From Neocallimastix lanati (nom. inval.) (lineage: Eukaryota; Neocallimastigomycota; Neocallimastigomycetes; Neocallimastigales; Neocallimastigaceae), in the NCBI GenBank assembly GCA_016946835.1, contig JACVTC010000045.1, forward strand, positions 652,501-716,500: a DNA stretch of 64,000 nucleotides, read 5' to 3'. Position numbers and translations under genes: made by a program. Of this stretch, positions 15,391 through 64,000 are shown piece after piece (the stretch's first letter is position 1; each line of letters begins with the position of its first letter). The notes below the pieces were generated by a model. It did not search any database and was not told the DNA's origin. It was given only the letters and a program-made list of their open reading frames with translations.

Positions 15391-16179
15391 TTAATTGATA
15401 TTTTTATTAATAATTTTAGTATTAGTTTTTTTATTTACTAATTTCTTTCTGATGGAATTTCTTTTTATGTTTTTATAGAGCCTTTTTAAATACTTCTTTC
15501 CATAATGACAGAGACTTCCGGCTCTTTGTTTATAGTAATAATATATTCCTTCATCGGGAGCCTTATATATTTTTGGATGGTGCTGGTAGCAATTTTTTCT
15601 GAATATTTTATCTTCCTGATATCTTATATTGGTTGGAAATCGTAGATTATGATCATCCAAAAATTCTCTTCGAAAGATGCTATCGCTGACAAAGCCTTCT
15701 ATTTTCGTAAAATTTTTATGATGAATATACTTATCCGATCCATTAATGCTTTTTACAAAGGTACCAACGACAACATCATAATTTTTTGTATATTTGTATA
15801 AATTTTCAAAAAACCGTTTATCAACATAGTCATCACTATCCAGGAATCCAATAAATTCACCGTTTGCGATATTGATACCAGTATTTCTACTTATGGATGG
15901 TCCTTTATTTTCATCCAAATGAATTATTTTAATTCGATAATCTTCTTTTTTAAGTTTATTCAATATATTAAGTGAATTATCAGAGGATGAATCATCAATA
16001 CATATTATTTCTAATTCCTTTAAAGTTTGGTTCAATACCGACTGAATTGAGCGTTCTAAATAAAGTTCTGTATTATATACTGGTATAATAACAGAAATCT
16101 TAATTTTTGAATAACATTTTCCTTCTAATAAAATAATAATAAAAATATACAATAAAAAAATTCTTTTTAATATAAACAT
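15391..16179 (-). CDS. GT2 family glycosyltransferase, secretory
   Basis: A 262-residue family-2 glycosyltransferase (GT-A fold), predicted to transfer a sugar from a nucleotide-sugar donor inside the secretory pathway. Residues 1-24 form a signal peptide or N-terminal anchor (FILKRIFLLYIFIIILLEG). The catalytic domain follows at once: SVIIPVYN at 29-36, IDDSSSDNS at 61-69, NKGPSISRNTG at 91-101, the metal-binding DSDD at 114-117, and QED at 188-190. YYYYKQRAGS at 213-222 is a conserved end motif, and the tail is Lys/Asn-rich. It is a close relative of 22902-23675, and of a decayed tail at 58370-58590. Short GT2 enzymes of this kind are abundant in bacterial polysaccharide loci, and the added signal peptide suggests redeployment to the ER/Golgi. 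Donor and acceptor cannot be told from sequence. Confidence 0.88.
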   Translation of the reverse strand: MFILKRIFLLYIFIIILLEGKCYSKIKISVIIPVYNTELYLERSIQSVLNQTLKELEIICIDDSSSDNSLNILNKLKKEDYRIKIIHLDENKGPSISRNTGINIANGEFIGFLDSDDYVDKRFFENLYKYTKNYDVVVGTFVKSINGSDKYIHHKNFTKIEGFVSDSIFRREFLDDHNLRFPTNIRYQEDKIFRKNCYQHHPKIYKAPDEGIYYYYKQRAGSLCHYGKKYLKRLYKNIKRNSIRKKLVNKKTNTKIINKNIN

Positions 16180-17358
16180 TTTTTAAAAATATAATTATTC
16201 TTATAAAAATTTTATTTTAATTGTTTTTAAAATTTTATTATTTATTTTATTTAATTTAATAATTTATTATGATTGTATTTATTTAGCTATTGAATTTAAC
16301 TTTCAATTTAAAAATATTTTAGAGCTTTTAATATTAATATTACAGTATAATTTAATATAAAAGTAAAAATGAGATTAATTATTTTTTTTTATTAAAGAAA
16401 TAAGACTTGGTTAATTATTAATTTTTTTTAAATAATAAAAAATTTAACTCTAATTTAATTAAAAATAATAATAAATTTTTTTTTTATAAAAACTTTATAA
16501 TGATAATTTAATTTTTAAAACTTAAATGAATTGCTTATATTGAAGTTAAAAAAATTAAAATAAACAAATTAAATAATTTTTTTCAATTATTAATTTCTGA
16601 ATTAAAATATTTAGTAAAATTTTAGAATAATTTATAATTTGTAATATTTATAAAAAATTAAATAAAAATAGCGAATTTCAATTTTTTTTTTTTCAAAATT
16701 AAATAAACTTTCATAATAAAAATTTTAAAATTCATAAAATATAATAAAATTTTATTATTTGATGTAATATTTTATATATTTTAATTTTTATTTAATTTAA
16801 TAAAAACTATTTTAAATTATTAACTTTCAAATCATTTATTAATAATATATCTAAATAAATAAATTTTAATAAATTCAACTCTATAAAAAACAATAAATAT
16901 TAATAAAGTATTAAAGTTTTATTTTTTTAAATAAACATAAATAATATTTGCTAAAATATAATTAATCTCTGTTATTTTTTAAAATTTAAAAAAACTATTC
17001 TAATATATAATAATAAAATTTTTAAAATTAGTACAGTTGAATATTATAATATGGATATGTTGATAATCTATTAATTATAATAATAAAGTTAACGTATAAA
17101 TTATAAAGTAAATCCTTAATTGTATTATTTAATTTTCTTTAATTTTTAATTATTTTAAATATGAATATAATAATAATAAATTATTCTTATATAAATATTG
17201 TACTTTTAATAAAGAAATTAACTAAATATTTTCAATAATATTATTAATACTTCAAATATTTTAATAGTAAAAATTTTTATTTTTAATTTTATTATAGTAA
17301 TATTTCTTGGAGTTTGATAAAAATATTACTACTAATTTTTCATATTCTTTTTTTTTTT
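16180..17358. other. A+T-rich intergenic region
   Basis: Lies between two genes read on the minus strand. It is nearly pure A and T, and no gene, RNA or element is seen. Confidence 0.6.
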
Positions 17359-19332
17359 TTAAATAGTTCTCTTTTTCTTTATTTTTCTGTTATTTTTCTT
17401 TTTTTTTTTTAGCTCCTTCAACTTCTGTTTATCGTTTTCAATTCTTATCTTCACATTATATATTTCACTTAATTCATTATTATCGTTATGCCATATACTA
17501 TCAATATATTCATATCCGGGTTTACTCAAATTCCAAGGCTTAAATGCGATATAATGAATTATTTTTTCATTAGAAATATATTTATTATTTCCATAAAATA
17601 CTTTTTTTAGAGTATTATATATATTAGATTCTAAAGTTACTTTAATATTATTTTCTAGAAAATATACTTGCATAATATCTTGATCTGGGCAGCTATTATA
17701 ATATGAAAATGATTTATCGTATTTATATGCTAAATTTAACATTTTATCAATATGTGATTTATCCAACATATTTTTATTTATAAATATTACACCATTATTT
17801 ATGTTTGTATTTATTTCATCATGTATGTTATTCCATATTTCTTTATTTTCTACTTTATATTTTTCATGTGTAAAGCATATTATATTTTCATTATTATTGA
17901 ATAATTCACAAATATTTGAAAGTACTAGTGTATCCGAATCAATATATAAAACTTTATCATAATCTGTTAAACCAAAAATCTCAAATTTTATTAAAGGTGG
18001 TATAAACCTTTTTGGTATGAACTTCTTATTTATTTTATCATACTTTAAAGTATCAATTTTCAAAAATTTTACATTAGGAAATTTAAATAATATTCTTTGT
18101 TTAGATTCATTTGATAAAATACTGTATTTGTCATCATGTATTACGAGAATATCTCCATTAAACCAATTATTATGTTTATAAAATGAATATAACATTGTTT
18201 CGAAACCTATAATGTAATTGTCATTTACTATTGTACATAAACAATATTTATAATTTATTAATTTAAATTTTTCATCTAATTTCAATTTAAAATCAGGAAA
18301 TTCACTAATAAAACTTTTTAAAATTAAATTATATTTTTTATTATCTATATTATATAATGATATATCTATTGAATCTTTAATAATATCTTTGGAGTAATCA
18401 TAAATTTTAGAGGATTGACGTAATGTTTTATTTTCAATAATATTAAAACACCATTGCCAAGATTCATCGGATGAAGGAGATAATTTCATAAATAAATCTT
18501 CATCAAAAAATCTTTTGTCTGTAAATGTATTTATTGGATATAAAATACCACCAAATCCATTCATAGGTTTTCCTGTATTAACAATCATATTTTTTATAGC
18601 ATTTAATTTACCTACTTCTGTTTTTATATATAAATATTTATATGATTCCCATTTATATTCAGATGTTAAGTATTGATTTGAAGCACCGAAAATTATATCA
18701 TTAGGATAAATTTTATGATCTTCTAAAAACATTTTTAACCACCATTTTTTTCTGATAATATAATCATCGCAAATTAATATTGGATTATTAGGATATTTCT
18801 TTAAGGTCGGTATCAATCTTTTATGGCTAATTATATTTCTTTCATACCATAAGATTTCAATCAAATCCGGATATTTATTTATAAAATCCACTAAATCAAC
18901 AGGTAAATCATTTTCTTTATTAGGAAATTCAGGAATAGCTAATACTAAAACAATATGATACATTGAAAATGGTACAGATTGATTTACCAATGATTCAAGA
19001 ACAATTTTTACATATTTAATTCTTGCAGGATACGATGTCAAAGAAACAATAACTTTTTCTTGGTTTTTATATAAAGAATCATTTTTAAAATGATTATCTA
19101 ATAGTTCATTATTTATTGTTGTAACTACATTTTGTTTATTATAATTTTCTTCTAAATATAAAATACTTGTTTCATTTAAGTTTTTAAATGAATACTGTAA
19201 TTCATATTTTTTAGTAAGTTCTTTGCATGTCAAACAATGTTTAAATAGACCATTTTTAGATATACCATTAATTCTTTCTATTAAAAAACAGAGTATATGA
19301 TTAATTAAAAATAATTTATAAAAAATTTTCAT
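17359..19332 (-). CDS. Two-domain glycosyltransferase: SLTSYP-type N-domain plus GT8 C-domain
   Basis: A 657-residue protein with a signal peptide/anchor at about 1-24. The N-terminal enzyme domain (about 92-310) shows VSLTSYPARI at 96-105, LICDD at 186-190 and SSDESWQW at 287-294. These belong to a glycosyltransferase type seen in bacterial polysaccharide clusters. The C-terminal domain (about 362-610) is GT8: CTIVNDNYIIG, the DSD metal site at 466-468, NNGVIFIN at 512-519, DQDI at 550-553 and HYIAFKPW at 593-600. Both catalytic cores look complete, so one chain may add two sugars in turn. A C-x2-C-x2-L-x-K-x-Y motif at 33-43 recurs in the GT10 gene. The tail is a Lys/Asn run. A decayed plus-strand copy lies at 36050-37115. 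Confidence 0.85.
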   Translation of the reverse strand: MKIFYKLFLINHILCFLIERINGISKNGLFKHCLTCKELTKKYELQYSFKNLNETSILYLEENYNKQNVVTTINNELLDNHFKNDSLYKNQEKVIVSLTSYPARIKYVKIVLESLVNQSVPFSMYHIVLVLAIPEFPNKENDLPVDLVDFINKYPDLIEILWYERNIISHKRLIPTLKKYPNNPILICDDYIIRKKWWLKMFLEDHKIYPNDIIFGASNQYLTSEYKWESYKYLYIKTEVGKLNAIKNMIVNTGKPMNGFGGILYPINTFTDKRFFDEDLFMKLSPSSDESWQWCFNIIENKTLRQSSKIYDYSKDIIKDSIDISLYNIDNKKYNLILKSFISEFPDFKLKLDEKFKLINYKYCLCTIVNDNYIIGFETMLYSFYKHNNWFNGDILVIHDDKYSILSNESKQRILFKFPNVKFLKIDTLKYDKINKKFIPKRFIPPLIKFEIFGLTDYDKVLYIDSDTLVLSNICELFNNNENIICFTHEKYKVENKEIWNNIHDEINTNINNGVIFINKNMLDKSHIDKMLNLAYKYDKSFSYYNSCPDQDIMQVYFLENNIKVTLESNIYNTLKKVFYGNNKYISNEKIIHYIAFKPWNLSKPGYEYIDSIWHNDNNELSEIYNVKIRIENDKQKLKELKKKKKNNRKIKKKRTI

Positions 19333-20599
19333 TTGATAATAAATATTAATTTGTATAATAGCAATTCAAATTCAATTGTCTGAAGATATAAAATTTATGA
19401 AGAATAATTATTTATTATTTATATTTTTAGAATGAGAATAGTTTATCACAATTAAAAATTAAAAATTTTAAAATTTAATTTGGTTTCAAAAATATCGAAA
19501 TGTTTAAACTAATAAAATACTTAAGTTATTTTACAAGAAATTTAATAGTTCACATTATTTTCTGAATTTTAAGTTGTATTCTCTTATTCTTAAATAATTA
19601 TTTTTAATTATAGATTTTAAATTAAAGTTTCTTTGTTTATTTTCTTGAAATTTAATATGTGTAATTCACTTGTTGAATAAAATTTGAAATATAAATTAAA
19701 ATCGGCATTTTAAATTATTATTAAAATAAATCTTTCAAAATTAAAAACTCTACATATTAGTTTAAAAATATTATTTATTTAAAATATAAAAATAATTTTC
19801 ATTTTTTATTTATTTTTTATTTAAATTGTTTTAGAATTTTTTAATTAAATTATTCAAATTTAATTTTATTATTATAATTAAAAATAAATAAAAAATTAAA
19901 AAAAATAATCATTATGTATATTTAGATTCTTTATTCTGAACAAAATTAAATAAAAAAATTAAATAATATATCATTTTTAATATTTTATAGTTTAAATTAT
20001 AATAAATGAATATAATATAAAATAATACAATGTTATATTATTTAGAATGTATTTTATTATTATTATTAGTACTATATATTTTATATGATTTATAATAAAA
20101 TAATAAAATTTTTTAAATTAATATATTTATATAATTTTAAACATATTTTTTTCTAATCTATTGTGAAAAACAAATTTATAAATCTAAGACAAACACTGTA
20201 TTAATAAAAACAATATAACAAAGTATTTTATGTTATGAGTAATATTATAAAAATGTTTATTAATAATTTTTATTATGAGGATATATATATTTTCTAAGAG
20301 ATATTTTTACATTAAATTTATTTCATATTTTTATATCTTAGTTAATATTATTTAATTTACTTAGAGATTAATTATTGGTTGATATAAATTAATAATATAA
20401 ATAAATGTATGTAACGATTTCGTCTCTAACATTTTTATTTATATAAATTTTATAATTAATTCTTTATTCATGTATTTATATATATATATTAAGATAATAT
20501 TCACTAATTTATATCTTTATTAAAATCTTATCATATATTATTACTTTTATTATTTTTTATTTGTATTTTGTATTTATTTTTAAAAATTTAAAATACAAC
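19333..20599. other. A+T-rich intergenic region
   Basis: Upstream of the two-domain glycosyltransferase. No gene or element is recognised. Confidence 0.55.
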
Positions 20600-22034: not shown

Positions 22035-22901
22035 TATATAGCAAACATTTAATGTTCTATTTAAATTTTTTTAAAGGAGAGATAATTTTTTGATTTTTAT
22101 TAAATTTATTGATATTTTAATTTTCATTTATAAAAAACATATTAAATATCATATTTTGATATAAAAAATATATATTATTATGATTATAAAAAAAAATAAT
22201 TTTTACAAAAATTAATTTATAAAGTATGAAATATTTAAATTTTTTTTATATTATAAATTCAGTAAATAATAATTCTTTTCATAAGAAAAATATAATCCTT
22301 TTTAATTCATGCTTTAATTTAATTTATATTATTAACAAAAATATGACTTTCTGTTTATTTTAAAACTATAATATTATTATAATTTTTTATATAATTAATA
22401 TATAAAATTTTAGTTTAAAATTTTGAAAATTTTGTAAGATATTTTATTAAAAATATAATTAAAATATTAAATATTTTCAGAATTTTTAATATTAAATTAA
22501 TATTTTTAGATAAAGGAAGTAGTTATCTTTAAAATTATTTATATAAAAAAAATACAAAAATATATATTAATTAATAATTTTATTATTTTTATTTTAAAGC
22601 TCATTTAATTAATAATTTCTAATTATTAATAGAAATTTTAATATTTCAAATATTTTGAGTTAGACATTATACAATAAATACTAATTGAAATTATTAAATT
22701 AATATTTATTTTCAAATAAATATTTATCAATTTTTAAAAAATATGAAATTTTATTAAATCTTAAATTACACTTTTTATTAATAAAGGTAAAAATCATAAA
22801 TTTTTAAAGGTTATGGAATATTTTTTATATTCTTATAGAAAATTTAATTAAATATAAATATAACAATTAATTCTTTAAGTATTAAAATATCAAAAATTAA
22901 A
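22035..22901. other. A+T-rich upstream region of the GT2 gene
   Basis: Nothing recognisable before the ATG at 22902. Confidence 0.5.
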
Positions 22902-23675
22902 ATGAAATTATTTAATAATTTATTATTAATTATTTATTTAACATTAGAAGTATTATTGAGTAGAACATTTTCTATACCATTATCGATTATTGTACCTGTG
23001 TACAATACAGGTCCTTTCCTGGATAGATGTATAAAATCAATTTTAAATCAAACTTTTAAGGATTACGAATTAATTTTTGTTGATGATGCGTCAACTGATA
23101 ATTCATTAAATAAATTAAAAAAATACAGGGAAACTGATAATAGAATCAAAATTATTCATTCAGAAATAAATAAAGGGCCTGGTGGAACAAGAAATATAGG
23201 AATAGACAATGCAGAAGGAGAATTCGTAGGATTTGTTGATAGTGATGATTATATTGATAAGTCATTTTTCGAAATACTAATGAAAAATTCATATGATAAT
23301 GATATTGTAGTAGGTCGTATAGTCAGAAGTACAAATATTTCAGATTACTATATAAAAGAAAGACATACTAAATGGGCAGTTGTTGATAAAATTTGGAGAA
23401 AAAATTTTATAAAAAAAAATAATATCAGGTTTAATGAAACAATGAGACATGGTAGAGAAGATGATGAATTTAATAATGAAGCTTATAAATTCAATCCTAA
23501 AATTTTAAAATTACCAGATGAAGGAATTTATTATTATTACAAAAGAAGAACTGGTTCTAATCAAAATTTTTCTAAAGATCAAATAAAAAAATTTGAAAGA
23601 AATGCTAAAAGAGAATTTAAAAAACAAAAAAAAAGTAAAAAAAAAATAGAAAAAAATAAAGAAAAGCTTGATTAA
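22902..23675 (+). CDS. GT2 family glycosyltransferase, secretory
   Basis: 257 residues, a paralogue of 15391-16179. Residues 1-24 are a signal peptide or N-terminal anchor (LLLIIYLTLEVLLS). Catalytic-domain landmarks: LSIIVPVYN at 27-35, FVDDASTDNS at 59-68, NKGPGGTRNIG at 90-100, DSDD at 113-116, a GREDDEF segment that supplies the acidic catalytic region, and PDEGIYYYYKRRTGS near the end. The tail from about residue 232 is Lys-rich. The ATG is the first in frame and sits in an A-rich context (AAAATTAAAATG). Enzymes of this type usually extend surface polysaccharides in bacteria. The N-terminal signal implies that this one works inside the fungal secretory pathway. The exact sugar is unknown. 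Confidence 0.88.
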   Translation: MKLFNNLLLIIYLTLEVLLSRTFSIPLSIIVPVYNTGPFLDRCIKSILNQTFKDYELIFVDDASTDNSLNKLKKYRETDNRIKIIHSEINKGPGGTRNIGIDNAEGEFVGFVDSDDYIDKSFFEILMKNSYDNDIVVGRIVRSTNISDYYIKERHTKWAVVDKIWRKNFIKKNNIRFNETMRHGREDDEFNNEAYKFNPKILKLPDEGIYYYYKRRTGSNQNFSKDQIKKFERNAKREFKKQKKSKKKIEKNKEKLD

Positions 23676-25709: not shown

Positions 25710-27078
25710 TCAACATAATAAACAAGCTCTTTCTTTTTTTGATATATCTTTTCTATCCCATTCAGTTAAAAAAGGATTAATCCATATATTATTAATTCTT
25801 TGTAATAGTAGACATATAGGATTTAATTTTTTAATCTCCATTAATCGTTTTAAATTTTCACCTAAATCTCCTTCTTTTGCTTTTTTTTTCCATTCTAAAT
25901 ATTTTTCATATTCTTTATCATTTTTATCTAAATATATTAAATACTTGGCTAATTCATTAGGATTTTTAAATTTTCTTACATCTATATAAGAATACTTATC
26001 AGGCGCAAAATCAGCAATATTCTGAGCACCATAATAAACAGGAACAGAACCTTCTATGAGTGGTTGAAAAAATTTTTCAGTAACATAATCCCGATCAACC
26101 GAATTTTCAAATGCTAAGGTAAATTTATATTTCCTAATAATATTCAATTTTGTTTCATATTGATCTTTACCTTTATCTTCTTTTCTTTCATCTTTATTGT
26201 GAAGACACTTACCATATGAATCAATCTTCACATAATTCATTAATTCTTTAATATATATTAATCTTTCTTTAGATTGGCAATTAGAAATAAATACAGCTGC
26301 AATAGCTTTATTTCCTTTTATTTTCTCTTTTACTGATATCGGCGATTTCTCAAAATGAAATGGTACATATGTAATAGGAACATCAGAATCAAGATGATAT
26401 TCTAAACTATAATCAAAATATTTTCTTTTAGTGATCATAACCCTATACCTTACTATTGATTCCATAGAAGTTAATATTAATTTTTGGCGATTTTTATCAT
26501 ATTTAAAATTTTCAATATTATTTATTTCTTTTAAATTATCTAAAACATTTAAATTAATAATATCACTTTCTTTAACATTATTAACATATTTCCAGGAAAA
26601 TGGACAATTTTTTCCTTCAGGATCTTCTTTATAATGATAATTTTTACCTTTATAATATATTTTATAATCAACTTCTTTTTTACTCAAAATATTTTTTGCA
26701 ATTATTCTTGAATCATTTTCCATAAATATTAATTTTTTTAAATAAAATATTTATTAAATTATTATTATAATAAACAATAAATTATAAAAAATCTATAACT
26801 TATTATATACCTATAATTAATTAAATTTTCATTTTTATACGTTTTCTCTAAAACAGAGCATTTTTTACAAATTTTTTTTAATTTTATCTTTTTATTAGAG
26901 CATCTTTTCATACATCGTAATTGTAACTTGGAATAACCTATCAACAATTAAAATTTTATTTAATAATATAATTGATTTTAATGATTAAATAATTAGATTT
27001 CATACTTTTAGAGATGGCATTATTAGTAAAAAAAATAGAAATAATCAATAAAGAGAAAATTAAAAATTTAATATTCAT
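25710..27078 (-). CDS. GT10 alpha-fucosyltransferase-like enzyme (3 exons)
   Basis: Proposed exons, minus strand: 27078-27006, 26937-26811 and 26706-25710. They join in phase to 398 residues. Exon 1 is a signal peptide (MNIKFLIFSLLIISIFF, then TNNAISK). Exon 2 is a basic stem with C-x2-C-x2-L-x-K-x-Y. Exon 3 is the enzyme. Donors are GTATGA and GTATAT; acceptors are TTGATAG and the weaker ATTCAAG. Family marks: FTLAFENS at about 262-269, DYVTEKFFQPL from about 273, GSVPVYYGAQNIADFAP and SYIDVRKF, the GDP-fucose-binding core of GT10. The product would be a lumenal fucosyltransferase. An unspliced start at 26723 would leave it without a signal, which the spliced model corrects. Linkage formed is unknown. 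Confidence 0.8.
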
Positions 27079-28170: not shown

Positions 28171-28627
28171 ATAAATATCTATTATTAATTTTTATTAAAG
28201 AATATTAAAGATCAATGTTTTCGAAATGAAAATTTTTTACATTTTTATTATATTCAATTAATGATGTAGTTTAATATTATTGGTAGTTAATAATCTCATT
28301 AAATATAAATGATTTTTTGCTTTCTAACATATATAATTAAATAAAACATTTTATTTTTAAAAATAAATTGTCTTTAATATTCTTTAATAAAAAAAAATAA
28401 TAAATATTTATTTTATTATATATACTTGTACTTTTATAATATTACATTTAATATTTATTTTATTTTATATACTTGTACTTATATTATTACATTCTTTATT
28501 TATTTATTTATTTATTTTACAAATAATTGAAAAACTAATTTTTCAAAATTAATATTACGAATAATATTGGACAATTAATATAATAATTATAATTATATAA
28601 TTAAAAAATATTTATAAAAATATAGAA
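28171..28627. other. A+T-rich upstream region of the MULE-like gene
   Basis: Contains a short tandem duplication at about 28405-28490 (ATATACTTGTACTTTTATAATATTACAT, twice, imperfect). No terminal inverted repeat belonging to the transposase-like gene could be seen by eye. Confidence 0.4.
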
Positions 28628-38527: not shown

Positions 38528-39929
38528 TTTATACTAATATAAATTATTTGATATATTAAAAAAATCTATTTAACTAATAAATGAACATTCTTTTTTTGAT
38601 ATTAACAAAGAAAAATATTGGAATTACTATACAAAGTGAAAATTTACCGAACAATTAGAAAAATTTTCAAACCATTAGTTTCTTTTGTCAGAAATAAAAG
38701 AAATTAAAATAATTTAATAATTGTTTATATTATAAAAATAAAATTATCTATGTTTTTCTATAAATAATTAATTAAATTATATAAATAATTGTATTATTAC
38801 AATAGATAATTTATATGCTTGAATTTTTACCTTTTCATAATATAATATAAAAAGGAATATTGTATTTTGATATGTGGATTTATTTGAAATATGATATACC
38901 TAATAAAACTGTTTATGTAAAGATGAAATATTTTATATTAAATAAATAAATAATAATTAAAAATAATTAATTAATAATATTTAAATAAAAAATTATAATA
39001 ATTTTAATATTTAAAATAATAACAATTTCAATCATTTAGCTATTTTTTATTTCATTTAAATTAATAAATTTTCATTAATTAAAAATTCTAATTAATTAAA
39101 TTTATTTAAATATATAAAATTTTCAATTATAATATATAAAAATTTTAAATTATTATTTTCTAATAAAATATCAATTATTAAATTAATAGTAATAATATTT
39201 TTAAATTTTTAAAATTAAAAATAAAATATAACTAAAAATGTTTTATTTTAATACGAATTATTTAATAATTATTTTTTTTATATTTATAGATTTTTTAAAA
39301 TATTATTAAAAATTATGAATAAAAAATAATACTTTTAAAATCATTATAAATGAAGTAAATAAATATTTATTTTTTATTTATTATATTTAAAAATTAATAA
39401 ATAAAAAAAAATAATAGATCAAAAAATTAAGAAACACTTTAAAAGTAGTGTTTTGTTTTTAATAAGTTATAATGATAACAAAAAATATATAAAAAATTTT
39501 ATTTCTTATTATTAAACAAAAAAATCTTTAAAAATTAAAAATAAACTAAAAATTAAAATAAAAATAAAATATAAAAATATAAAAGAGTATTAAAATTTTT
39601 ATTTTCATTATTATTTTAAAAAAAAATATTTTCATATTATAAAGAAAACAAAAAATAAATTTAAAAATTAAATAAAAAAAAAAATAATAATACTTAATAA
39701 TTATTAAAACATTATTTAATTAAATGCAATGCCATAATCATATAAAATAATAAAAAAATTAAAAAAATAATAACATAAATATAATTGAGAGAAATTTTAT
39801 AATTTAATACTTATTTTCCTTTAATATTTAACTTAATTGAATAAAAAGTTATTTAATTATTAAAAAAATAATTTTTTTAATAAAACTTAAAAAAAATTAA
39901 TTTTAAAGTTAATTATAAATATTAATAAA
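38528..39929. other. A+T-rich intergenic region
   Basis: Upstream of the nitroreductase gene. No gene, RNA or element is recognised. Confidence 0.55.
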
Positions 39930-49754: not shown

Positions 49755-52700
49755 AAAATATTATTGTCAATTATTAACAATAAAATTAAAAAAAAAAAAA
49801 AAAAAAACATATATATTTTTAATTCCAATATTAATAAATGTAAATCAAGTATAAATACCTTTTTCAAACATAAAAAACCAATAATATAAATGTTTAATTA
49901 AATTAATTTCAAATAGCATAATGAAAAATATTACATTAAAAAATAAGATAAAAATAGAAACCAATCATAATTCTGAAATATATTATTTTATAACCTTTTT
50001 TTATTAAGTAATAAATATAACTTAACCAATTATCAAAAATATATATTATTAAAGTTCATTATAAATTATCAAGGAAATATTAAACAATATATATTTCAAT
50101 TTACATTTATTTAATGAAAATAGAATAAGGTTTTAATCAATATATTGAATATGTATAAATAAACAATCCAGACATACAACATATCCCTCATCAATTATTC
50201 TTTAAAATTTAAAAAAAAAAAAAAAAAAATATTCGCATAATATAAAATATTAATAAATTATTAAAAAAAAAATAAATTAATTTAAAATTCTCCACAATGG
50301 CTAACACAAGAAGAAACAATAGAAATGAAGTAATTACCACTGAAGAACCCATTGACATCAGGCCAATCAAAGAATATTATCAATTAAATCGAACCAATCT
50401 AATACATTTAAATTTTGGATTTCAACTCAACCATTAAATTTTCAAAACAACCAACATAATAATAATTTGGTTGAAATCAATTATACACATTTAAAATCAA
50501 TTGATAAACTAAATTTATGGCACCGTCGTTTTGCCCATTTTAATATCAATAGTATCAAAAATAAAATTTTAAAAATAAACATAAACTCAAAGTGCCCTAT
50601 TTGTAGTTATTCAAAACTTAAAAATAAGCCCTTCAAATCATCACATAATAGAGCCAAAAATATATTTCAACTCATACACATGGATCTTATAGGTCCAATA
50701 CAAAACTCTATCTATGACAATAAATATATCTTAACCATTTTGGATGACCATTCAAGATTTGGGTGGACTCTCTTTATGAAGAGTAAATCAGAAACTTTTT
50801 ATTACTTCCTTAATTGGTTTAATAAAATAAAAAATCAATTTAACAAAAGAATTCAATATATCCGTACAGATAATGGTACCGAATTTAACAACAAAAATTT
50901 CAAACAATTTTGCATTGACTTTGGAATACAACATCAATTTACTGTTCCCTACCACCCACAACAAAATGGTAGGATTGAACGATTCAACGGCACTATAATC
51001 AATTCTGCAAAGTCAATGTTAAATGACGCAAAACTTAGCTTACAATTTTGGGAAGATGCCGTCTCTACTTCGAACTACATTCATAATCGAATCCCTCATA
51101 AAGGGATAAATAATAAAATTCCATATGAACTTTTAACCAATAACAAAGTTGATTATTCAAACATACGTGTCTTCGGATGTAAAGTTTTTTATTATGTTCC
51201 AAAACTATTCCGTACCAAATTTCAAAATAACTCATCTCCTGGCATATTCTTGGGGTATGTTGATAATCCCACAGCATACAAAATTCTTGATATAACAAAT
51301 AATAAAATTATAATTTCATGAAATGTTGAATTCTTTGAATTTACACCAGGAAATTCACATTTATCTCATTGCGATAATGACATCTCAAATTTTATTCCCA
51401 ATAATATAATAAGGAGGAATGATAATACCTACTTTTATGATAACACATATGATATAAACCATGGCAAAGACTTTAATAATACTAACAATAATAATCCGTA
51501 TTATCAATATAATAACAATAAGTCAAATAATATTCAAATATTAGACAATAATACTCAAATAAATGAAAATAATATACCAAGTAAAAACATTCAAATAAAA
51601 AATAAAAGAAAATATAACAAAAGAAGAAACAACAATAATAACAACACCAAAAATATTAATAATAATCAAAACAAAGATTATAATAATAATATAGAATCTC
51701 AAGATAATAACATTGACAACAACGACAATAATAATAACAATAACACAAGTAACAATAAAATTAATAACAACGATAACACAAACAGCAACAACAACACTAC
51801 CAACAGCAATAATAACAAAATAAATAATAATATTAATAAAAACGACAATATGATCACTGTCAGTAATAAAAACAATCATAATAATTCAAATATAGACAGA
51901 TATAATTCAAACAATAATAAAGATAACAACAATGAACAACGAATCATTAATAACTTAACGAATAACAAATTATTTAATATAGAATCTTCCATACATTTAG
52001 GAAAAAGAAATAGAAATGAAAACTTCATATTAAATTCAAATAACAAAAAACAAAAATCATTAAAAGAATTACGCGAACCAAATAATTATGATGATATCTT
52101 TAATTTAAATGATAAAAATGAATGGTTAAAATCAGTTGATAATGAACTCGACAATATGAGAAATCTAAAAGTATATGAAACAATTGATAAAATACCTAAG
52201 AACGCAAACTTAATATCATCAAGATGGATTTTCAAATTCAAACGAAACTCAAATGGAGAAATAATCAAAAGAAAATCAAGATTAGTAGCAAAGGGATTTA
52301 CGCAAGAATACGGCATAGATTATAAAGAAACCTTTGCACCTACCTTAAAACAGGATTCAATAAGAATCTTTACAGCAATTGCCACTCAGAACAATTTTGA
52401 AATAAACCAAATAGATATAACTGCCGCCTATTTAAATGCTGAATTAAATGAAGATTTATATATGAAACCACCCAAAGGACATGAAGATTACAATAAGAAA
52501 TTTTGGAAATTGAAGAAGGCAATATATGGACTGAAACAAAGTGGTGCCAAGTGGAATGATAAATTAAATGGCTATCTTATAAAAATTGGATATAAAAGAC
52601 TTATAAGTGAACCTTTTCTGTACGTTAAATTTAATAAAGGAAAACTTTTAAGTATGTTAGCTATATATGTGGATGATATTTTAATATCAGGATCAAAGAA

Positions 52701-53660
52701 AACAATAGAAAGTGTAAAATTATTAATTGAGAAAAAGTTCAAAATGAAAGATATAGGTAATGTTGATTATATTATTGGAATAAAATTTACAAAACATAAA
52801 AATGGTTACTTTTTACATCAACACAGATATATAGATGAATTACTTTCTAAGTTTAATATGAAAAATTGTACACCTCTTAGAATTATGACTCCAATTGAAA
52901 ATGAAGATCTTAGGAAGGTAAAAGTAGATGAAACAAAATATAGAAGCATAATAGGAAATTTATTATATCTCAGTATATGTACAAGACCCGACATTATCTT
53001 CTCAGTATCAAAAGCAGATAGAAGGGCAAAGGAACCAAATATGGAAGACTGGAATAACGTAATGAGAATATTAAGATATTTAAAAGGAACTAAAAAATAT
53101 GGAATAAATTTCACAAATAATCCGAATGTTAAAGCGTATGTCGATTCGGATTACGGAGGTGACTTGGAAACTAGACGTTCAACAACAGGATTCTTAATAA
53201 CATTTGGCGGTGCACCAACAAGCTGGTGTTCAAAGTTACAAAAATCAATATCGACTTCAACAGCCGAGTCCGAATATTACAGTCTTAGTGAATGCGGTAA
53301 ACAATGTATATGGTACTTAAATTTATTCGAAGAATTGAACTTAAATATTAAAAATATTGAAGTAAATGTTGACAATAAAGCAGCTATTTATAACGCTACA
53401 AATCAAACTATCAACCCAAAAACTAAACATGTAGACATTAGGGTTCATTACATAAGAGAAATAGTCAAAGAAAATAAAATCTATCTTAAATATATAAAAT
53501 CTGAAAACAATCTCGCTGATGGGTTTACGAAGTATTTAAATGGGACATTAATGGATAAATTTAGAAATTCCTTATTAACAAAAATTGATGATTTATATTT
53601 TATTTGAAATAATATAAATAAAAAATATGACATTTTAGGAAAGTCATATTTTAGGAGGAA

Positions 53661-53899: not shown

Positions 53900-53904
53900 G
53901 AACT

Positions 53905-54394: not shown

Positions 54395-54780
54395 TTATAT
54401 TTCTATTAATAAACTAAAAAAATACATTAATTAAGCTGAAAAAGATTTGAAAATACAGCAATCTGAACTGGTAGCAACATATAAAAAAAATAAACAAACG
54501 TGCTTGAAAATATAAATATATATGATATAAATTTGTTCCAAATGCGTAATACGAAATTAAAAGATGATATTAATAATTTAGGATATTCTCTTTTTTCAAT
54601 ACCCTTTTTTTAGAAAAGGGATTAACTCACTTTAAACACATACAATTTAATAACATAAATTAAAACATTAATTAATATATTGAAAAGCATAATTAAAATA
54701 TAGCAATTAGGAATATAATTTTCATTTATTAATTTCATAAATACATTAAGAAAATACAAAAAATATTAAAATTGACATTC
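54395..54780 (+). pseudogene. Decayed central part of a nitroreductase-like gene
   Basis: LGYSLFS, FLEKGLTHFK and INTLRKYKK-like segments match LGYSLVF, HSLEKGLSHFK and INTLREYKN of the gene at 39930-41510, in order and on the same strand. The frame is broken repeatedly. No FMN domain follows. Together with 48560-48730 it shows that a second copy once stood here, now split by a copia element and other sequence. Confidence 0.7.
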
Positions 54781-55038: not shown

Positions 55039-56127
55039 TTAGTTGAATTTTTCATTAATCAATGAATTAAACATTTCTTCTTTCTCTTTTGTACGATTAT
55101 TATATTTAAAATATTGCCCCTTAATAAAATTAATAGAAAAATTAATTTCTTTATTTAAACCAAAGCTAGCATCGGGTTTTTTATATTTTCTTTTGATATA
55201 TTCTTCTGTTGATTTTGTAATAAAATGATTTAAATAAACAGGTAAATCGAAGTAAGCTTCCTTATCATTTAAATAATTTTTTACTCTCTTTTTTTTTAAA
55301 TTAACAAAGGTTAATTCTCTATTGAGTAAACCGGAAGCATTAATGATTAAATCTTTTTTATATTCTTTACATTTAATTATAGTTTTTACTCTTGTAGAAT
55401 ATTGGGAGTTTTTTCTACTTCCAAATCTCTCATTAACTGTCTTATTTTCATAATGCAAATATCCATTATCTCCATAAACTCTCCATTGTACTCTAATTCC
55501 GTCATATTTATTAAAATCATTTAAAAATTCATAAATGTCATTATATTTAGATTCTATTGAAAGAAATTCATCAATATCAAAAAAAAATATCCAATCATTA
55601 TTTTTGTAATTATTGTAATAACAATCATGATATGATTCTGCCTGCACTGATTTTTTTTCTTTTATTTCTTTAGGCCCAATTTCTTTATTAGTTTTAACTA
55701 TTCCTCTTCTATTAATAACTTTAACAAATCCATTTATAATATAATCATTTATGACATCCTCAAATTTTTCTCCATCTACTTTATTATTATCATAGAGGAC
55801 AATTTTATTTACTCCAAGATTCTTATACCATTCTACCCATTCTCTGATGTATAGATTTTCGTCCCTTCCAATAGCACAAAGTGTTATTCTAAGAGGTTTA
55901 TTGTTATCAATTACAGTACTTTTATTATTCTTTTTCTCTGTCTTTAAATATTTGATGTTATTATATAATAAAATATTGTCATAATTTTTATTTAAGCATA
56001 ATAAACTTCCGTCATTATTTGGAGAATTATGACTATTATTACTTTCTATTAAAATACCACAAGCAGAAATGCACTTAAAACCCACCAATAGCACAAAAAT
56101 ATATTTTAATTCAGGAAAATATTTCAT
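55039..56127 (-). CDS. GT92 / GT2-like glycosyltransferase, secretory
   Basis: 362 residues. A signal peptide or anchor spans about 7-23 (LKYIFVLLVGFKCISAC), followed by an Asn/Ser stem to about 78. The enzyme domain has ITLCAIGRDENLYIREWVEWY at 81-101, VNKIVLYDNN at 106-115, QAESYHDCYYNN at 162-173, and FFFDIDEF at 181-188, whose DxD coordinates the metal and nucleotide-sugar. VYLNHFITKS sits near 295-305, and a basic region ends the protein. This motif set is typical of the Glyco_tranf_2_4/GT92 group, which in eukaryotes often galactosylates glycans and in bacteria occurs in surface-polysaccharide loci. The ATG at 56127 is the first in frame and begins the signal. Which sugar is moved is unknown. 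Confidence 0.83.
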   Translation of the reverse strand: MKYFPELKYIFVLLVGFKCISACGILIESNNSHNSPNNDGSLLCLNKNYDNILLYNNIKYLKTEKKNNKSTVIDNNKPLRITLCAIGRDENLYIREWVEWYKNLGVNKIVLYDNNKVDGEKFEDVINDYIINGFVKVINRRGIVKTNKEIGPKEIKEKKSVQAESYHDCYYNNYKNNDWIFFFDIDEFLSIESKYNDIYEFLNDFNKYDGIRVQWRVYGDNGYLHYENKTVNERFGSRKNSQYSTRVKTIIKCKEYKKDLIINASGLLNRELTFVNLKKKRVKNYLNDKEAYFDLPVYLNHFITKSTEEYIKRKYKKPDASFGLNKEINFSINFIKGQYFKYNNRTKEKEEMFNSLINEKFN

Positions 56128-56945
56128 TTTTTATATGGTTTAATATTTATATTTTTACAAATAATACCTACTACTGTAAATGATTTTTTAATTTTGTAAT
56201 ATATGAATAATGAATATTTAAATATAAGTATTTTTATTAATATATATTTAATAGTTTCAAAATTAAATTTATAAAAGAAATATTTTTTTAACTTATATAT
56301 TCCTTATATATTATAATTTTTTTTTATTTAAATAATTTATGAATAAAAAAATGTAATAAAAATTCAATTGTTAAAAATTAATATTTATTTCAATTATTAA
56401 TACTTTAATAAATTATTTTTATACTTATCTTTACTTTATAAAATTTATGAATTTATTAAATTTATTAATTTAAATCATATTTAAATATAACTTAGCGGAA
56501 AATAAAAATTTTCAAAAAAAAAAAAAAAATAATTATAATAATAATTAAATATAATATTAAATTCAATATAATTGAAATTTAAAATAAATAATTATAATCA
56601 TTTTATACTTATTTATGAAATTAATAATTTAGATATTGATATTTATAAATTTAGTTTTTCTTAATACTAAATAATATTTTATTAATAAAAATTTTTTCAA
56701 TAATAATTATAAATTTATAAAATAAATAAATTTCTTTTTTTAATATTTATTAATATGTTAATTTTATAAAATTTAATTATAGTTTACATTAATTTTTTAT
56801 AAAAAAAATATGAGTTTATTTTAAAAAAAATTAAAATATTTAAATTTTTTAAAAGATTCTAATTTAAATAAATAATTATTCATTTTGAAAGAAAAAAATT
56901 TTTTTTTAATAATTATATTTTAATATATATTACAATTAATATATT
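56128..56945. other. A+T-rich intergenic region
   Basis: Nothing recognised. Confidence 0.55.
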
Positions 56946-58369: not shown

Positions 58370-58590
58370 TTTTTTTTTCATTTTTTAAATTTATATTAAT
58401 TTCTTTTTCTTTTTAATAATTTTTTTATTTTTATTTGGATTTATTTTTTGTTTTCTGAGTTCGTTAAAGGCTTTTTTAATTAATTATATCTATTGTTCTT
58501 CATTAAAAGTTTGAAAGAGAGCCTTCTCTTTCTTTATAATAATAAAAAATTCCTTCATTGGAAGATACAAAAATTTATATTTTTATAAAT
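58370..58590 (-). pseudogene. Decayed tail of a GT2 glycosyltransferase gene
   Basis: On the minus strand, CTTCCAATGAAGGAATTTTTTATTATTATAAAG corresponds to the PDEGIYYYYKRRTGS region of the GT2 genes at 15391-16179 and 22902-23675. A Lys/Asn-rich tail follows, as in those genes. A one-base shift and a stop break it. The catalytic part is absent, so this is the remnant of a third GT2 copy. Confidence 0.6.
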
Positions 58591-59376: not shown

Positions 59377-60629
59377 TTACACAACAAAATTTTTTAAAAT
59401 AGGTGTGATGGATAAGAGATAACTTACAAGTAAACTACTTCCACATATAACCATCCAAAAAGTGGGACATCCTATAGATGAACTTAATTTTATATCTAAA
59501 AATTCTTCCTGCTTTATGTGGGCATATCTCGATAGTAATTTTTTCAGAATCATATGAGAGAGATACATACCGAAAATTAAAGCCGACAATTTTGAAATGA
59601 TTCTTATGGCCCGTTCTGAAAAATTAATTCTTCCAATTTCATGCTTAAAGAAGATAAAAAGTACTACAGTATAGAATGCCACGGTTAGAGTATAACTGTC
59701 ACGAAAATCCTTAGAATAACGTCCAGTTTTCATTTCCAGACGATAGGTCATACCAAAAATAAGAAAAATATCAGCTAATCCTAAAATATAGAGTAGTACT
59801 CGAATTTTGAATGATTTAATAGTGACATGCTTAACAATATGATAACCGGCAACGAAATACCCTACAAATTCCAAAGTAAAATGATAATGCCAACGGCTGG
59901 TCCATGTATTCAGTTCGTCTTGAGCTTCCTTCTATTGATAAGAACTAAAAATATTTTTAAGCGTTGGAATTAATGATCCCCAGAAGACACAGAGACCAAA
60001 AAAATATCTGGCAAGGTTAACATCATCCGAAAAAAGACGTAAAAACGGTGAAATAAGATAGCAGCTAATGATCATAAAAATGAACCAGAGATACTCTTCA
60101 CCAACGAAAAAAAGCTTTAAGAATTCGGAAGGTTTATTTTTTTTATAGAGAAAAATATTAATTAGTGCATTAATGGTTGACCAAAAGGCAAATGCTGTGG
60201 CCGGTCTCAAAATATTATGTCGAAACAATTTTTTAAAGGAGAAGGTCCTGGAGGGGTCGAGGATGAATGTTCCGGAAAGAAGGACGAACATTGGAACGGC
60301 GAAACGAGTCATACAATTATAGAAACAAATGATCATTACATTGGAGTCCTTTCGTTTGAGGTGAGTTTTTTCACATCCATACCCAGCACTATGGAGTAAA
60401 ATAATTCCAAGCATAGAGAAGATACGAGCACAGTCAGTCCAGTACAAACGTTTTCTTTTTTTGGGTTGAAGGGATGGAAGACTTTCATTGAGGGTAGCTT
60501 CACTTCCAGTCACAAAAGAATTTAAATTTGAAATATTTATTTGTTTTTGATTCTCCTGAGGTCTTGATATAGTTTGAATGTTTGAAACGAATTCATCATT
60601 TATTCTAGTTTTTTTGAATTGTAGTATTG
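59377..60629 (-). pseudogene. Acyltransferase-3 family membrane protein with one in-frame TAG
   Basis: The minus-strand frame encodes a polytopic O-acyltransferase (Acyl_transf_3; OafA/WecH-like). It opens with RLYWTDCARIFSMLGIILLHSAGYG, whose D..R and following His are the family's catalytic start. Hydrophobic spans include RFAVPMFVLLSGTFIL, TAFAFWSTINALINIFLY, YLWFIFMIISCYLISPFL, FVGYFVAGYH and others to FWMVICGSSLLVSYLL. The frame is continuous except for one TAG at 59934-59932 (SSYQ-stop-KEAQDELNTW). Family alignment by eye suggests no intron there. Upstream, the open frame runs to 60629 without an ATG. TTTAACTAG just before it looks like a splice acceptor, so a first exon is missing. Either a fresh pseudogene, a base error, or a read-through gene. 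Its role would be acetylating a lumenal or surface glycan. Confidence 0.75.
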
Positions 60630-62184
60630 CTAGTTAAATCCATATAAAGAAACAACAAAAAATTGTTAATAAAATTAAAATCAAATATCAAAATTGTTTT
60701 AAAAACAAAAGTCATATATTTTTTATTTTATACAATAATATTATTTTAATGATTTAGATTTCTGTCTCCTATTGACTCATTTTGTACATATATCTTTTTT
60801 TTAAAACAACTATTAAATAAATAATCATATCATATATATAATTATTATTTTATTAATTAAAATTATATATAATTTGAAAAAAAAAATTTTAATAAATAAA
60901 AAAATAAATATATAATAAAAGAGATATGAGATGAATTATTTTTTTTTTAATATAATAATAATTTAATATTTTAAATATTTGATATATCTTTTTCATTTAA
61001 ATAATTATAAAAGTTTTATCCTAAAGTTATTTCTAGTATAAATAATATACGTAATATCTCATGAGATAAATCGTTATAATAGCTTTTTTAAAGATAAAAT
61101 TTAGTTATATCTATTTTTATACTTTTAGTAAAATATAATTTTTATTTTGAATATAAAATATTTATAATTTATTATATATTTAAGATTTCTATTTTAATTA
61201 AAAATAAAATTTTTATTTTTACTATTTTATAATATATTTTTAGAAAGTTTATCTTTTTATTTGCATTATATATAAATAAAATAAATATATATAAATATTT
61301 AAAAATAATTATTAACTTTTTTTTTTATTATATTCAAATACAAATTGCATAATTAGTAAAAATTATTTATTTATAGATATAGATTAAAAAAAATAATTCA
61401 TATAAATAATTTATAAATTTTATTATTATTTAAATATTTTATTTTATTTCTTTATATAAAGTTAAAAGTAATAATAATTAAATAATTCTTTACTAATATT
61501 TTCTGTTTATATATATTACGTTACATTAAGATGATCAAAAATGTAACTTATATAATAAATTTAATAAATATAATAAATATAAATTTTAATTCTAATTATC
61601 GAGACTAATTAAAATATAAAAAATGAAAAGTACATTTCATAATAATTTAATATTATTTGAATATGTATATTAATAATAAAATAAGCCAAAAAAAAAAGAG
61701 AATACTTTATATTATAATATATTATTACTAATTAACAAATTTAAATTTTTTTAAAAAAAAAATATAATTATATACAATATATATATACTTTACATACTTT
61801 TAATGTTTTATTTATTTATTTAAAAAGTATTTTAATCTTATATTATTAATAAAGGAATTAAACTTATTTAAATTATTAATTTATTTATTATTCTATTGTT
61901 TTTTAATTCTTACTAAAATAAAAGTACTACTTATATTTATAATATATAAAATTATTCTAATGTATTATAACAGTTAAAATAAAGATATTAAATTTATTTT
62001 TAAATGTTTTTTTTACTAATTAAATTTCTTATTATTTTAAATTACTGTAATACATTTTCTCTTTAAAATTTAAAGTTATGTTTTGTATAAAAATATTTCA
62101 TTCAAATTTTTAATTTACTAAAGAACTTGTTATCAATTAATGCAAGTAATATTTCATAATAAAATTCTTCTTATATTATTTCTT
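60630..62184. other. A+T-rich region; first exon of the acyltransferase may lie in its left end
   Basis: No gene is recognised. An ATG-initiated stretch with a hydrophobic product lies at about 60640-60715 on the minus strand, but in a different frame from the acyltransferase, so it was not joined. Confidence 0.4.
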
Positions 62185-62400: not shown

Positions 62401-63676
62401 AATTTAGACCTTATATAATTATATTTTAGAATAATTATATTATTATAAAAAATGAAATTAAATAAATCTTTTTCATTTGCTTTATTTTATTTTATTTTAT
62501 TTTTTTTTCAATAAATGATATTAAAACACAGTTTTATATTTAAAAAATTATAAGAATTAACACTTTAACAAGTTTAACAAATTTAGTTCTATCAATTAAT
62601 AATAAAATATTAAATGTAATTGAAAAATTGAAATAATAAAAAAAATACTGTATTAATCAAAAAATAATTGTTTAATATTATTTTAAGTTATTTATATTTT
62701 TTTATAGAATCTTAATTGAAATTTTATTTCAATAATTAATATATATAAAAAGATTAATCACTCTTAAAAATTTTTAAAAAAAATTTTTATCTCTAAGAAA
62801 TAATTATTTTAATATTATTTGAATTATATATAATTAATTTTTATTAATTAATTTTTTTTATATTTATATCTTTAAATATTATTTATTTATTTATTCATTA
62901 AAGTTATAAAATTTTTTTTCAAATTATTTATTTATTTAATTATTAATACCCTTCAATTATATATTAATAATAATCGTAATATTGTAAATTAAATAATTAA
63001 GTTACTCTTGAAATTTTAAATTACATTATAATATGAAAGAGAATCTGTTTCAGTTTTTTTATTAAAAAAGTTTTTATATAAAATATGTATATATTATTAT
63101 TTTTATAATAATAAAAAAAAAGAAATTAAATAAATTAAATATTAATAAATATTATAAAAAAAATAAATATATTTAAAATATCATTATTAGAGAGTATTAA
63201 ATTTATGTTATAATAGGATAAAAATTTTATTAAATATATATTATTTAAAAAAATAAATTATTTATTATCAATATATTTTTTTTCTTTAAATGCTTATTTA
63301 TTCAATTTAAAGTTTAAATATTTTTTTTTTTATTATCATTTTTTTAATACTATTTTCTTAAATAATATTTTTTATATTATTTTTTTATATTATTTTTTAA
63401 ATATATAAAAAAAATAAACAATAAATAATAAATAATATTAAATAAATAAATATAATTTAATTTTATATTTTATTTATATTATTAATATTAAAAAAAAATA
63501 AAAATATTTAACTAGAAAAAAATTAATTATAATTTTATTTCTTAAAAAATTAAAACTGTAAATTTATTATTTATATATAAATAACTTTATATTTAATCAT
63601 TTATTTATGATAAGACATACTTATTTTAATACTTTATAAATTATATACCTATTTTTATATTATTAAATAAATAAAA
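62401..63676. other. A+T-rich upstream region of the Stealth gene
   Basis: Nothing recognised before the ATG at 63677. Confidence 0.5.
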
Positions 63677-64000
63677 ATGAACCTATTGACATTTAGGAAT
63701 ATATTTTATTTATATATTAAATTATTATTAAATTTTATTATTAATAGCAAGAGTAGTAACCTTTCCCAAATTCATAATAATAATTTATATCTTGTGGATC
63801 AAACTAAAATAAAAAATAATCATGAAAAAATATTAAGTGTTCAAATAAATAGCACTACAAACTCAAATGAAGAATATGATCTAAATTTAATATTAAATTA
63901 TAAAGGAGGACCTATTGAACCAGAATGGCAATGGGTTAAAAATGTATCGATTGTATATACCTGGGTGGATGGCTCTGATGTAAATTTTCAAGATCTGAAA
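63677..64000 (+). CDS. Stealth-family sugar-phosphate transferase, 5' part (runs off window)
   Basis: The first 108 codons are open to the window edge. The N-terminus is a signal peptide or anchor (about 9-23, IFYLYIKLLLNFIIN), then an Asn/Ser-rich stem. At about 88-108 comes WVKNVSIVYTWVDGSDVNFQDL, which carries the Stealth CR1 signature (IVYTWVDGSD). Stealth proteins move a hexose-1-phosphate onto a glycan: bacterial capsule polymerases and animal GlcNAc-1-phosphotransferase (GNPTAB) share this block. A full protein needs CR2-CR4 downstream, which cannot be seen here. It agrees with the glycan theme of the window. The ATG is the first in frame after an A+T-rich leader. Confidence 0.78.
   Translation, partial: MNLLTFRNIFYLYIKLLLNFIINSKSSNLSQIHNNNLYLVDQTKIKNNHEKILSVQINSTTNSNEEYDLNLILNYKGGPIEPEWQWVKNVSIVYTWVDGSDVNFQDLK

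Follow-up and report, generated by a model that had tools for sequence, protein, structure and literature searches.

We analyzed a 64,000-nt stretch of the gut fungus Neocallimastix lanati (nom. inval.), hereafter the window, which carries a series of genes for glycan-assembling enzymes. It covers positions 652,501 to 716,500 of C390, a 1.24-Mb contig in a genome of 199 Mb and 762 contigs (C numbers denote contigs of this genome, L numbers individual loci). The window is low in G+C (8–27% per 2 kb), with its glycan genes at 19–33%. A preliminary description had listed several glycosyltransferases together with a pyruvyl transferase, a nitroreductase, an acyltransferase, and a Stealth gene; Pfam searches recovered these families in place, the Stealth gene and a decayed GT2 were also found, and the exception was the SLTSYP half of a two-part enzyme, for which there is no Pfam model. 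The features of the window are as follows.

15391-16182, minus strand: GT2a, a GT2 glycosyltransferase with an N-terminal signal (hydropathy); PF00535, 8e-41; 83% identity to its C90 paralogue at 955 kb
17359-19365, minus strand: SLTSYP/GT8 two-part enzyme with an N-terminal signal and half of a cysteine module (HCLTC); PF01501, 1e-11; C90 homologue, 81%
22848-23675, plus strand: GT2b, a GT2 glycosyltransferase with an N-terminal signal; PF00535, 1e-36; falls within the fungal GT2 group
27006-27078, minus strand: GT10 exon 1, start codon and signal peptide (spliced model)
26811-26937, minus strand: GT10 exon 2, cysteine module C-x3-C-x10-C-x2-C, common to GDSL-type, GT92, GT-D, and FkbM-type proteins
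25710-26706, minus strand: GT10 exon 3, fucosyltransferase catalytic domain, eukaryote-type; PF00852, 6e-42 (frame 25710-26750)
28601-30052: FLYWCH/MULE gene (Pfam)
36343-37101, plus strand: decayed SLTSYP/GT8 copy with many stops; tblastn 36% over 299 aa, 5e-32
39891-41510, plus strand: nitroreductase-family protein with an N-terminal membrane anchor (hydrophobic stretch at residue 40); PF00881, 1e-14; its open paralogue at 929 kb of C390, 84%
45248-45339, minus strand: pyruvyl transferase exon 1, signal peptide; script-listed for the window copy, spliced model open
45073-45129, minus strand: pyruvyl transferase exon 2 (spliced model)
43401-44964, minus strand: pyruvyl transferase exon 3, the entire catalytic domain; PF04230, 2e-26 (frame 43401-44969); 79% to the C90 copy
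55039-56130, minus strand: GT92-family glycosyltransferase with an N-terminal signal and no cysteine leader; PF01697, 9e-18
58398-58559, minus strand: scrap of a decayed third GT2; tblastn 46% over 54 aa, 3e-7
59377-60633, minus strand: acyltransferase-3 gene with one in-frame TAG (Pfam); open relatives on C90 and C390
63671-64000, plus strand: 5′ part of a Stealth-family phosphotransferase with an N-terminal signal, running past the window end

The pyruvyl transferase matches PF04230 at 94 bits (cut-off 25.3) over profile positions 1–276 of 280, and GT10 matches its C-terminal catalytic profile at 143.8 bits (cut-off 23.9). For the SLTSYP half of the GT8 protein, Pfam gave no match and the PDB none that was credible; three plasmid records align with it at 28–31% identity, two of them annotated as glycosyltransferase and one unannotated under the match. 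A structure prediction for the SLTSYP/GT8 protein from a two-row alignment had a mean pLDDT of 35 and was discarded. The genome contains 52 Stealth_CR2 domain matches. A weak resemblance to nitroreductase at 54470–54763 was taken as chance. Two copia-like elements, very similar and on opposite strands, occupy 3550–8237 and 50356–53607 (frames read by eye). An open frame of 603 aa at 11388–13199 is cysteine-rich and repetitive with a hydrophobic start; we take it to resemble gut-fungal scaffoldin repeats.

N-terminal signals were judged by hydropathy alone, and spliced models were built from the sequence with GT-AG introns. The claim that each complete gene has an N-terminal signal or membrane span is borne out for the seven complete glycan genes tested (GT2a, GT2b, SLTSYP-GT8, GT10, the nitroreductase, the pyruvyl transferase, and GT92), all of which have a hydrophobic stretch near the N-terminus, as does the start of the Stealth gene (the weakest, 1.87). 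The main frames of GT2a, GT2b, SLTSYP-GT8, GT92, and Stealth themselves begin hydrophobically. In GT10 and the pyruvyl transferase, the leader lies in upstream exons separate from the main frame, and the spliced models are stop-free with hydrophobic starts. Their modelled introns (68 and 104 bp in GT10, 118 and 108 bp in the pyruvyl transferase; all GT-AG) are confined to the leader, and the catalytic domain is a single exon. A counterpart of pyruvyl transferase exon 1 was read by eye in the C90 copy and in the 866-kb copy of C390; the printed sequence of the C90 copy, likewise read by eye, shows no clear donor after exon 2. Although bacterial DNA contaminating the assembly would explain the bacterial-type catalytic domains described below, we reject it as virtually impossible: the genes share the low G+C content given above, two leaders contain modelled introns, the leaders are hydrophobic, the contigs are of megabase size, and paralogues lie on several of them.

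The pyruvyl transferase matched 26 plasmid records (best 5e-43, annotated as a coenzyme F420-reducing hydrogenase subunit) and the nitroreductase 35. Compared with the fungal enzyme, bacterial pyruvyl transferases range in identity from 13% (Pseudorhodobacter) and 19% (Butyrivibrio) up to 34% (Paracoccus), so that some are remote. Two residues of the aligned segment, Arg 154 and His 255, are conserved in 13/13 bacterial rows; we tentatively equate them, in an alignment without a CsaB row, with R148 and H308, given as the PEP-binding residues of CsaB in passages of PMC10435577. A bacterial scan with the pyruvyl transferase alignment, which used two peptide patterns only, returned a single relative. 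One pyruvyl transferase relative lies in a Lachnospiraceae locus (L082) with GT2, Wzy-like, and Wzx-like genes, names that reflect our reading of the frames, and GT2 adjoins a pyruvyl transferase on plasmids of Ruminococcus albus (pRUMAL01) and Butyrivibrio fibrisolvens (pNP243). The surroundings of eight nitroreductase matches were inspected. In four (Pseudorhodobacter L084, E. coli, L. plantarum, and Allorhizobium) a pyruvyl transferase and a glycosyltransferase accompany the gene in an exopolysaccharide-type locus, in two (Paracoccus and Gemmobacter) nitroreductase and pyruvyl transferase form one protein, and the remaining two (both Rhizobium records) lie outside such loci.

A GT2 tree was built from 27 fungal rows (of 39 genome matches; duplicates, fragments, and unfetched loci left out) and ten bacterial rows. 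All fungal rows but one form a single group (26/27; ultrafast bootstrap 94, SH-aLRT 95), the 27th being a GT2-GT4 fusion. The bacterial rows near the group, from R. albus, Lachnospiraceae L082, and a single E. coli plasmid protein, all sit on long branches. The same group of 26 came out of a quick tree that took in eight additional, longer bacterial rows. GT10 differs: it had no match among the plasmid records, and its catalytic exon finds its best solved relative in 9s6a, a glycoprotein 3-alpha-L-fucosyltransferase (8e-35). The GT10 copies on C24 and C25 match that exon at 59–63%. The Stealth protein matches solved structures at 1e-27 to 1e-21, GNPT-type and bacterial CpsY about equally.

The label of bacterial-type genes therefore fits the pyruvyl transferase, the nitroreductase, and GT2, which have bacterial relatives; it does not fit the eukaryote-type GT10, and Stealth is balanced between the two. 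Likewise, the proposed co-occurrence in bacterial loci holds for these same three families, which lie near each other in exopolysaccharide-type loci, those of rumen bacteria included; transfer from rumen bacteria in particular is at most a suggestion, given ten bacterial rows in the GT2 tree and long branches on the nearest of them. A capsule or exopolysaccharide pathway as such was not borne out. PF02397, the initiating sugar-phosphate transferase, had no match in this genome, against matches in 9 of the 14 genomes used as controls (no search was made for a flippase or polymerase), so the locus is not a transplanted capsule pathway. The fungal glycan genes lie kilobases apart on both strands rather than contiguous and co-oriented.

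We mapped nine families genome-wide: pyruvyl transferase, nitroreductase, GT-D, GT10, GT92, acyltransferase, GT2, Stealth, and SLTSYP-GT8. Eight were picked for their presence in the window; GT-D first came to attention in flanking sequence on C90 and was then tested genome-wide. The final count drops copies with stops, fragments, two GT92-like proteins that contain a partial pyruvyl domain, a half-intact SLTSYP copy on C13, and the short contigs C204, C213, C265, C289, C345, C395, C526, and C586 (the Stealth stretch of C265 is identical to that of C390). Domains of one gene were merged and GT92-GT8 fusions counted once, as GT92, which leaves 102 intact members. With the window's own members left out, 22 of the remaining 94 fall on C390, whose length would predict 0.56; C90 holds 11 of 102, where 0.91 would be predicted. 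C390 has representatives of all nine families, and seven of these occur on it beyond the window as well. By family, the intact copies on C390 number 2/3 of the genome's pyruvyl transferases, 2/2 nitroreductases, 2/6 GT-D, 1/5 GT10, 4/7 GT92, 3/23 acyltransferases (the interrupted window copy excluded), 13/29 GT2, 2/24 Stealth, and 1/3 SLTSYP-GT8. GT-D, absent from the window, has three of its six intact copies on C390 or C90, the C90 copy having been known beforehand. Because members of one family are not independent, families were counted as well as members; when the distinct contigs of each family were placed at random 20,000 times, no 1.2-Mb bin contained more than six families, a value reached once. 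The glycan-gene neighbourhood is hence real, nonrandom, and larger than first described.

As a control we used the xylanase family GH11, with 127 domain matches in the genome, a number in keeping, like the low G+C content, with an anaerobic gut fungus. None lies on C390 or C90, a weak control because only ~1.9 are expected there, and the ten contigs holding at least two of the nine families carry 8/127 (7.0 expected). As a separate observation, decayed GT-D copies at ~4.0 kb of C457 and ~4.0 kb of C711 lie ~2 kb from GH11 xylanase matches.

Part of C390 has a diverged second copy. Six anchors (Stealth, GT2a, pyruvyl transferase, acyltransferase, Stealth, and GT92) occur in the same order and strand at 442–752 kb of C390 and 738–1044 kb of C90, and the first five pairs share 80–90% DNA identity. 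GT10, the nitroreductase, and the window GT92 gave no hit at the C90 counterpart; in the C90 block, a GT-D gene stands beside the pyruvyl transferase. Between C390 and C90, dN/dS (Nei-Gojobori, own script) is 0.17 for GT2a, 0.19 (window gene) and 0.29 for Stealth, 0.28 for SLTSYP-GT8, 0.36 for the pyruvyl transferase, and 0.17 for the acyltransferase at 556 kb of C390; the two C390 nitroreductases give 0.35. Over pairs within these six families (for the acyltransferase, C390 556 kb/C90), values range from 0.17 to 0.38; GT2b pairs give 0.46–0.51, the GT92 pair 0.29, and GT10 pairs 0.23–0.40. Linkage is thus conserved within this one genome, in a block whose GT2a, pyruvyl transferase, and two Stealth genes have dN/dS of 0.17–0.36.

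Some arrangements recur elsewhere. An acyltransferase and a GT2 are neighbours at 556 kb (L031) and 547 kb (L032) of C390 and at 99 kb of C114 (L033), and the two C390 acyltransferases share 99% DNA identity with zero synonymous changes. At 1283 kb of C212 (L012, 685 aa) and 951 kb of C379 (L013, 684 aa), a Glyco_tranf_2_4 (GT92-like) domain is joined with a C-terminal piece of a pyruvyl transferase domain. Near the C90 cluster, at 984–992 kb (L078), positions 2430–2807 hold an exon-like piece of a UDP-glucose/GDP-mannose dehydrogenase.

The main rival explanation of this clustering is that a few transferred genes landed on C390, C90, and kindred contigs and multiplied there as in a duplication nursery, each enzyme serving its own pathway. 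The 26 small fungal GT2s form one group (94/95), so that one gain followed by many duplications suffices for them; many decayed SLTSYP copies lie on the same contigs, the 547- and 556-kb acyltransferases are nearly identical, and the window holds copia-like elements. Such a history sits poorly with nine families on one contig, with dN/dS well below 1 in the kept copies, and with the same leader and module on unrelated catalytic domains, and we regard it as rather unlikely.

That module is the ~40-residue, four-cysteine segment C-x3-C-x10-C-x2-C-x2-L encoded by GT10 exon 2, after the signal. A 45-residue query taken from the GT92 gene at 752 kb of C390 gave 26 matches in the genome (E 1e-23 to 0.37, its own place included), a lower bound because exon 2 of the window GT10 and the GT-D copy on C90 escaped the search. 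All 26 are confined to nine contigs (C390, C90, and C212 with 5 each, C75 and C511 with 3, C114 with 2, and C102, C649, and C710 with 1), and 24 lie on the ten contigs with at least two families, which make up 5.5% of the genome (C511 taken as 1.09 Mb). The letters of 9 of the 26 copies were read. Their carriers are a GT92 (L081), GDSL-type proteins (L099–L102 and L104), FkbM methyltransferases (L105 and L106), and the C-terminus of a GT92-GT8 fusion (L103). The GDSL assignment comes from Pfam for L100 and L101 only, from solved GDSL enzymes for L099, and by eye for L102 and L104, which are partial; FkbM was assigned by Pfam on the L106 piece. With GT10 and GT-D, the module thus stands on five unrelated catalytic families, plus the one C-terminal case. 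The cysteine spacing is nearly constant across the GT10, GT92, GDSL-type, and FkbM-type copies; the GT-D module has one residue fewer between cysteines 1 and 2 and eight more variable positions. Two copies tested had no Pfam match at E up to 10, the fungal dockerin (PF02013) included. The FkbM-type module proteins, at 1171 kb (L105) and 907 kb (L106) of C390, show no hydrophobic leader within the stretch read.

Leader DNA is common to genes with unrelated catalytic domains, which indicates that leaders were shuffled. The 752-kb GT92 gene of C390 matches the window GT92 in catalytic DNA alone (70% over 825 bp) and a C90 GDSL-type gene in the leader alone (73% over 298 bp, 2e-45). The stretch in common begins ~86 bp ahead of the ATG and stops shortly past the module. 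The window GT10 leader matches a GDSL-type leader at 51% of 69 residues (3e-17; DNA 2e-17), and the C24 GT10 copy (L017) has a different hydrophobic anchor. When the GT92 leader was compared with the other fetched fungal loci and the window, AT-rich matches reached 2e-10, E-values being only roughly comparable between databases of different size; the best of these control matches lies in the 5′ part of the nitroreductase gene. A GT10-GT92 leader DNA match at 2e-7 was weaker than these AT-rich matches and was not counted; the GT92 and GT10 matches to GDSL-type leaders were.

It is possible, if doubtful, that the cysteine leader is a mere secretion leader or propeptide spread by recombination, with no role in docking or anchoring. 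The limits of the shared GT92/GDSL-type piece, which begins shortly before the ATG and stops soon past the module, agree with this. Against it speak the nearly kept cysteine spacing on GT10, GT92, GDSL-type, and FkbM-type proteins and the GT92-GT8 fusion, in which the module, placed at the very C-terminus, cannot act as a leader.

We propose that the window belongs to a larger compartment of glycan-enzyme genes whose products, marked in part by the module, would act in the lumen to build and decorate a secreted or surface glycan; we give this reading a probability of about 0.6. GT2, GT8, GT10, GT92, and GT-D enzymes transfer sugars, pyruvyl transferases use phosphoenolpyruvate (PEP), and Stealth proteins transfer sugar phosphate. 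Acyltransferase-3 proteins, according to PMC9558356, acylate surface sugars. Bacterial catalytic domains of the exopolysaccharide type (GT2, the pyruvyl transferase, the nitroreductase, GT-D, and possibly the SLTSYP enzyme and acyltransferase) and eukaryote-type ones (GT10) would have been fitted with secretory leaders, then amplified, and in part allowed to decay, within the region. In the lumen of the endoplasmic reticulum or Golgi, the glycosyltransferases may extend and branch the glycan, onto which pyruvyl, acyl, and sugar-phosphate groups would be added. The module, moved among genes by leader shuffling, would most likely anchor or dock the enzymes. The genes, their concentration, the paralogous block, its constraint, the sharing of leaders, and the distribution of the module are observed; that the enzymes work in the lumen, and jointly on one glycan, is our interpretation, as is the role of the module. 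Lumenal action would also require PEP and reduced cofactor to be supplied to the lumen, a difficulty for this reading.

Several observations weigh against this proposal. Acyltransferases lie mostly elsewhere (19 of 23 intact copies off C390 and C90), as do four of five GT10 copies, and outside the window there is no significant excess on C390 for Stealth (P 0.13), GT10, or SLTSYP-GT8 taken singly. Families can also become clustered through tandem and segmental duplication, with no function in common. The window SLTSYP-GT8 has its best C90 relative at 838 kb, out of anchor order; the window acyltransferase holds its in-frame TAG, its copies on C90 and at 556 kb of C390 being open; and one TAA interrupts the GT92 anchor on C90. 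Within the window, the full module was seen in GT10 only, SLTSYP-GT8 having half a copy. Lastly, the module is also carried by GDSL-type proteins; the best solved relatives of these are described as cellulose-binding, and plant material therefore is still a possible substrate.

A variant of our proposal takes up this last point: the enzymes would modify the fungus's own secreted plant-degrading glycoproteins, such as cellulosome parts, with the module as a targeting tag. Hydrophobic leaders suit it, as does the resemblance of module-bearing GDSL-type proteins to cellulose-binding GDSL enzymes, and gut-fungal dockerins are likewise fused at either enzyme end, as parts of PMC8262932 describe. 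We are inclined to doubt this choice of substrate, since the two module copies tested match no Pfam family, dockerin included, and GH11 shows no linkage to C390 or C90. A bolder extension, offered tentatively and in our estimate improbable, is that the module is a second, independent gut-fungal docking system that gathers glycosyltransferases, esterases, and methyltransferases into a lumenal complex, with recombination recruiting enzymes and the nitroreductase as redox partner of the pyruvyl transferase, an idea that rests on the bacterial nitroreductase-pyruvyl transferase fusions.

Bacterial gene transfer into gut fungi is well known from passages of PMC11291939 and PMC6712302. The former lists 58 transferred carbohydrate-active enzymes, some of them glycosyltransferases, so the transfer of a glycosyltransferase is not in itself new; in gut-fungal transcriptomes, according to parts of PMC6054980, GT2 ranks with the most abundant families of glycosyltransferases. 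The words pyruvyl, nitroreductase, Stealth, and glycosyltransferase are absent from the main text of PMC6712302, as are Stealth, pyruvyl, and FkbM from that of PMC8778642, and among the matches listed from open PubMed Central texts we noticed no publication on this cluster. New here is the four-cysteine module after the GT10 signal, common to unrelated enzymes. The locus points to a little-known fungal glycan-building system. If our proposal is right, parts of bacterial surface-polysaccharide chemistry were rebuilt in the fungal secretory pathway at chromosome scale, with new enzymes recruited by swapping in a leader and a small cysteine module. The pyruvyl transferase, with introns modelled in the leader only and a one-exon core, would then illustrate a concrete route from a transferred cytosolic bacterial enzyme to a eukaryotic lumenal one. 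Unusual pyruvylated and acylated surface glycans would be predicted, and the module would serve as a sequence tag for finding further members.

Compared with known systems, the cluster resembles bacterial exopolysaccharide and capsule loci (Lachnospiraceae L082, R. albus pRUMAL01, B. fibrisolvens pNP243, and Pseudorhodobacter L084), where relatives of GT2, the pyruvyl transferase, and the nitroreductase lie near each other. Unlike those loci, it has genes kilobases apart, signals, modelled leader introns, and no PF02397 match, and several bacterial pyruvyl transferases are distant (13–34%). Schizosaccharomyces pombe Pvg1 is a comparable fungal ketal-pyruvyl transferase, which, according to passages of PMC6801904, places pyruvate onto secretory N-glycans. 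The window enzyme has no credible sequence match to any solved chain, and Pvg1 (5ax7; passages of PMC10435577) is not among the two chains listed at E up to 10, whereas bacterial plasmid proteins match down to 5e-43. The module recalls the dockerins of gut-fungal cellulosomes, which parts of PMC8262932 describe as small modules joined N- or C-terminally to secreted enzymes of unrelated kinds; it differs in lacking a Pfam match, in standing on glycan-building as well as glycan-modifying enzyme types, and in its confinement, in one search, to nine contigs. The Stealth protein is like the phosphotransferases GNPT and CpsY, but its family is present here in many copies. Finally, the GT10 catalytic exon, through its match to 9s6a, is akin to core alpha-1,3-fucosyltransferases, and the window GT10, unlike the C24 copy with its hydrophobic anchor, carries the leader found in this compartment.

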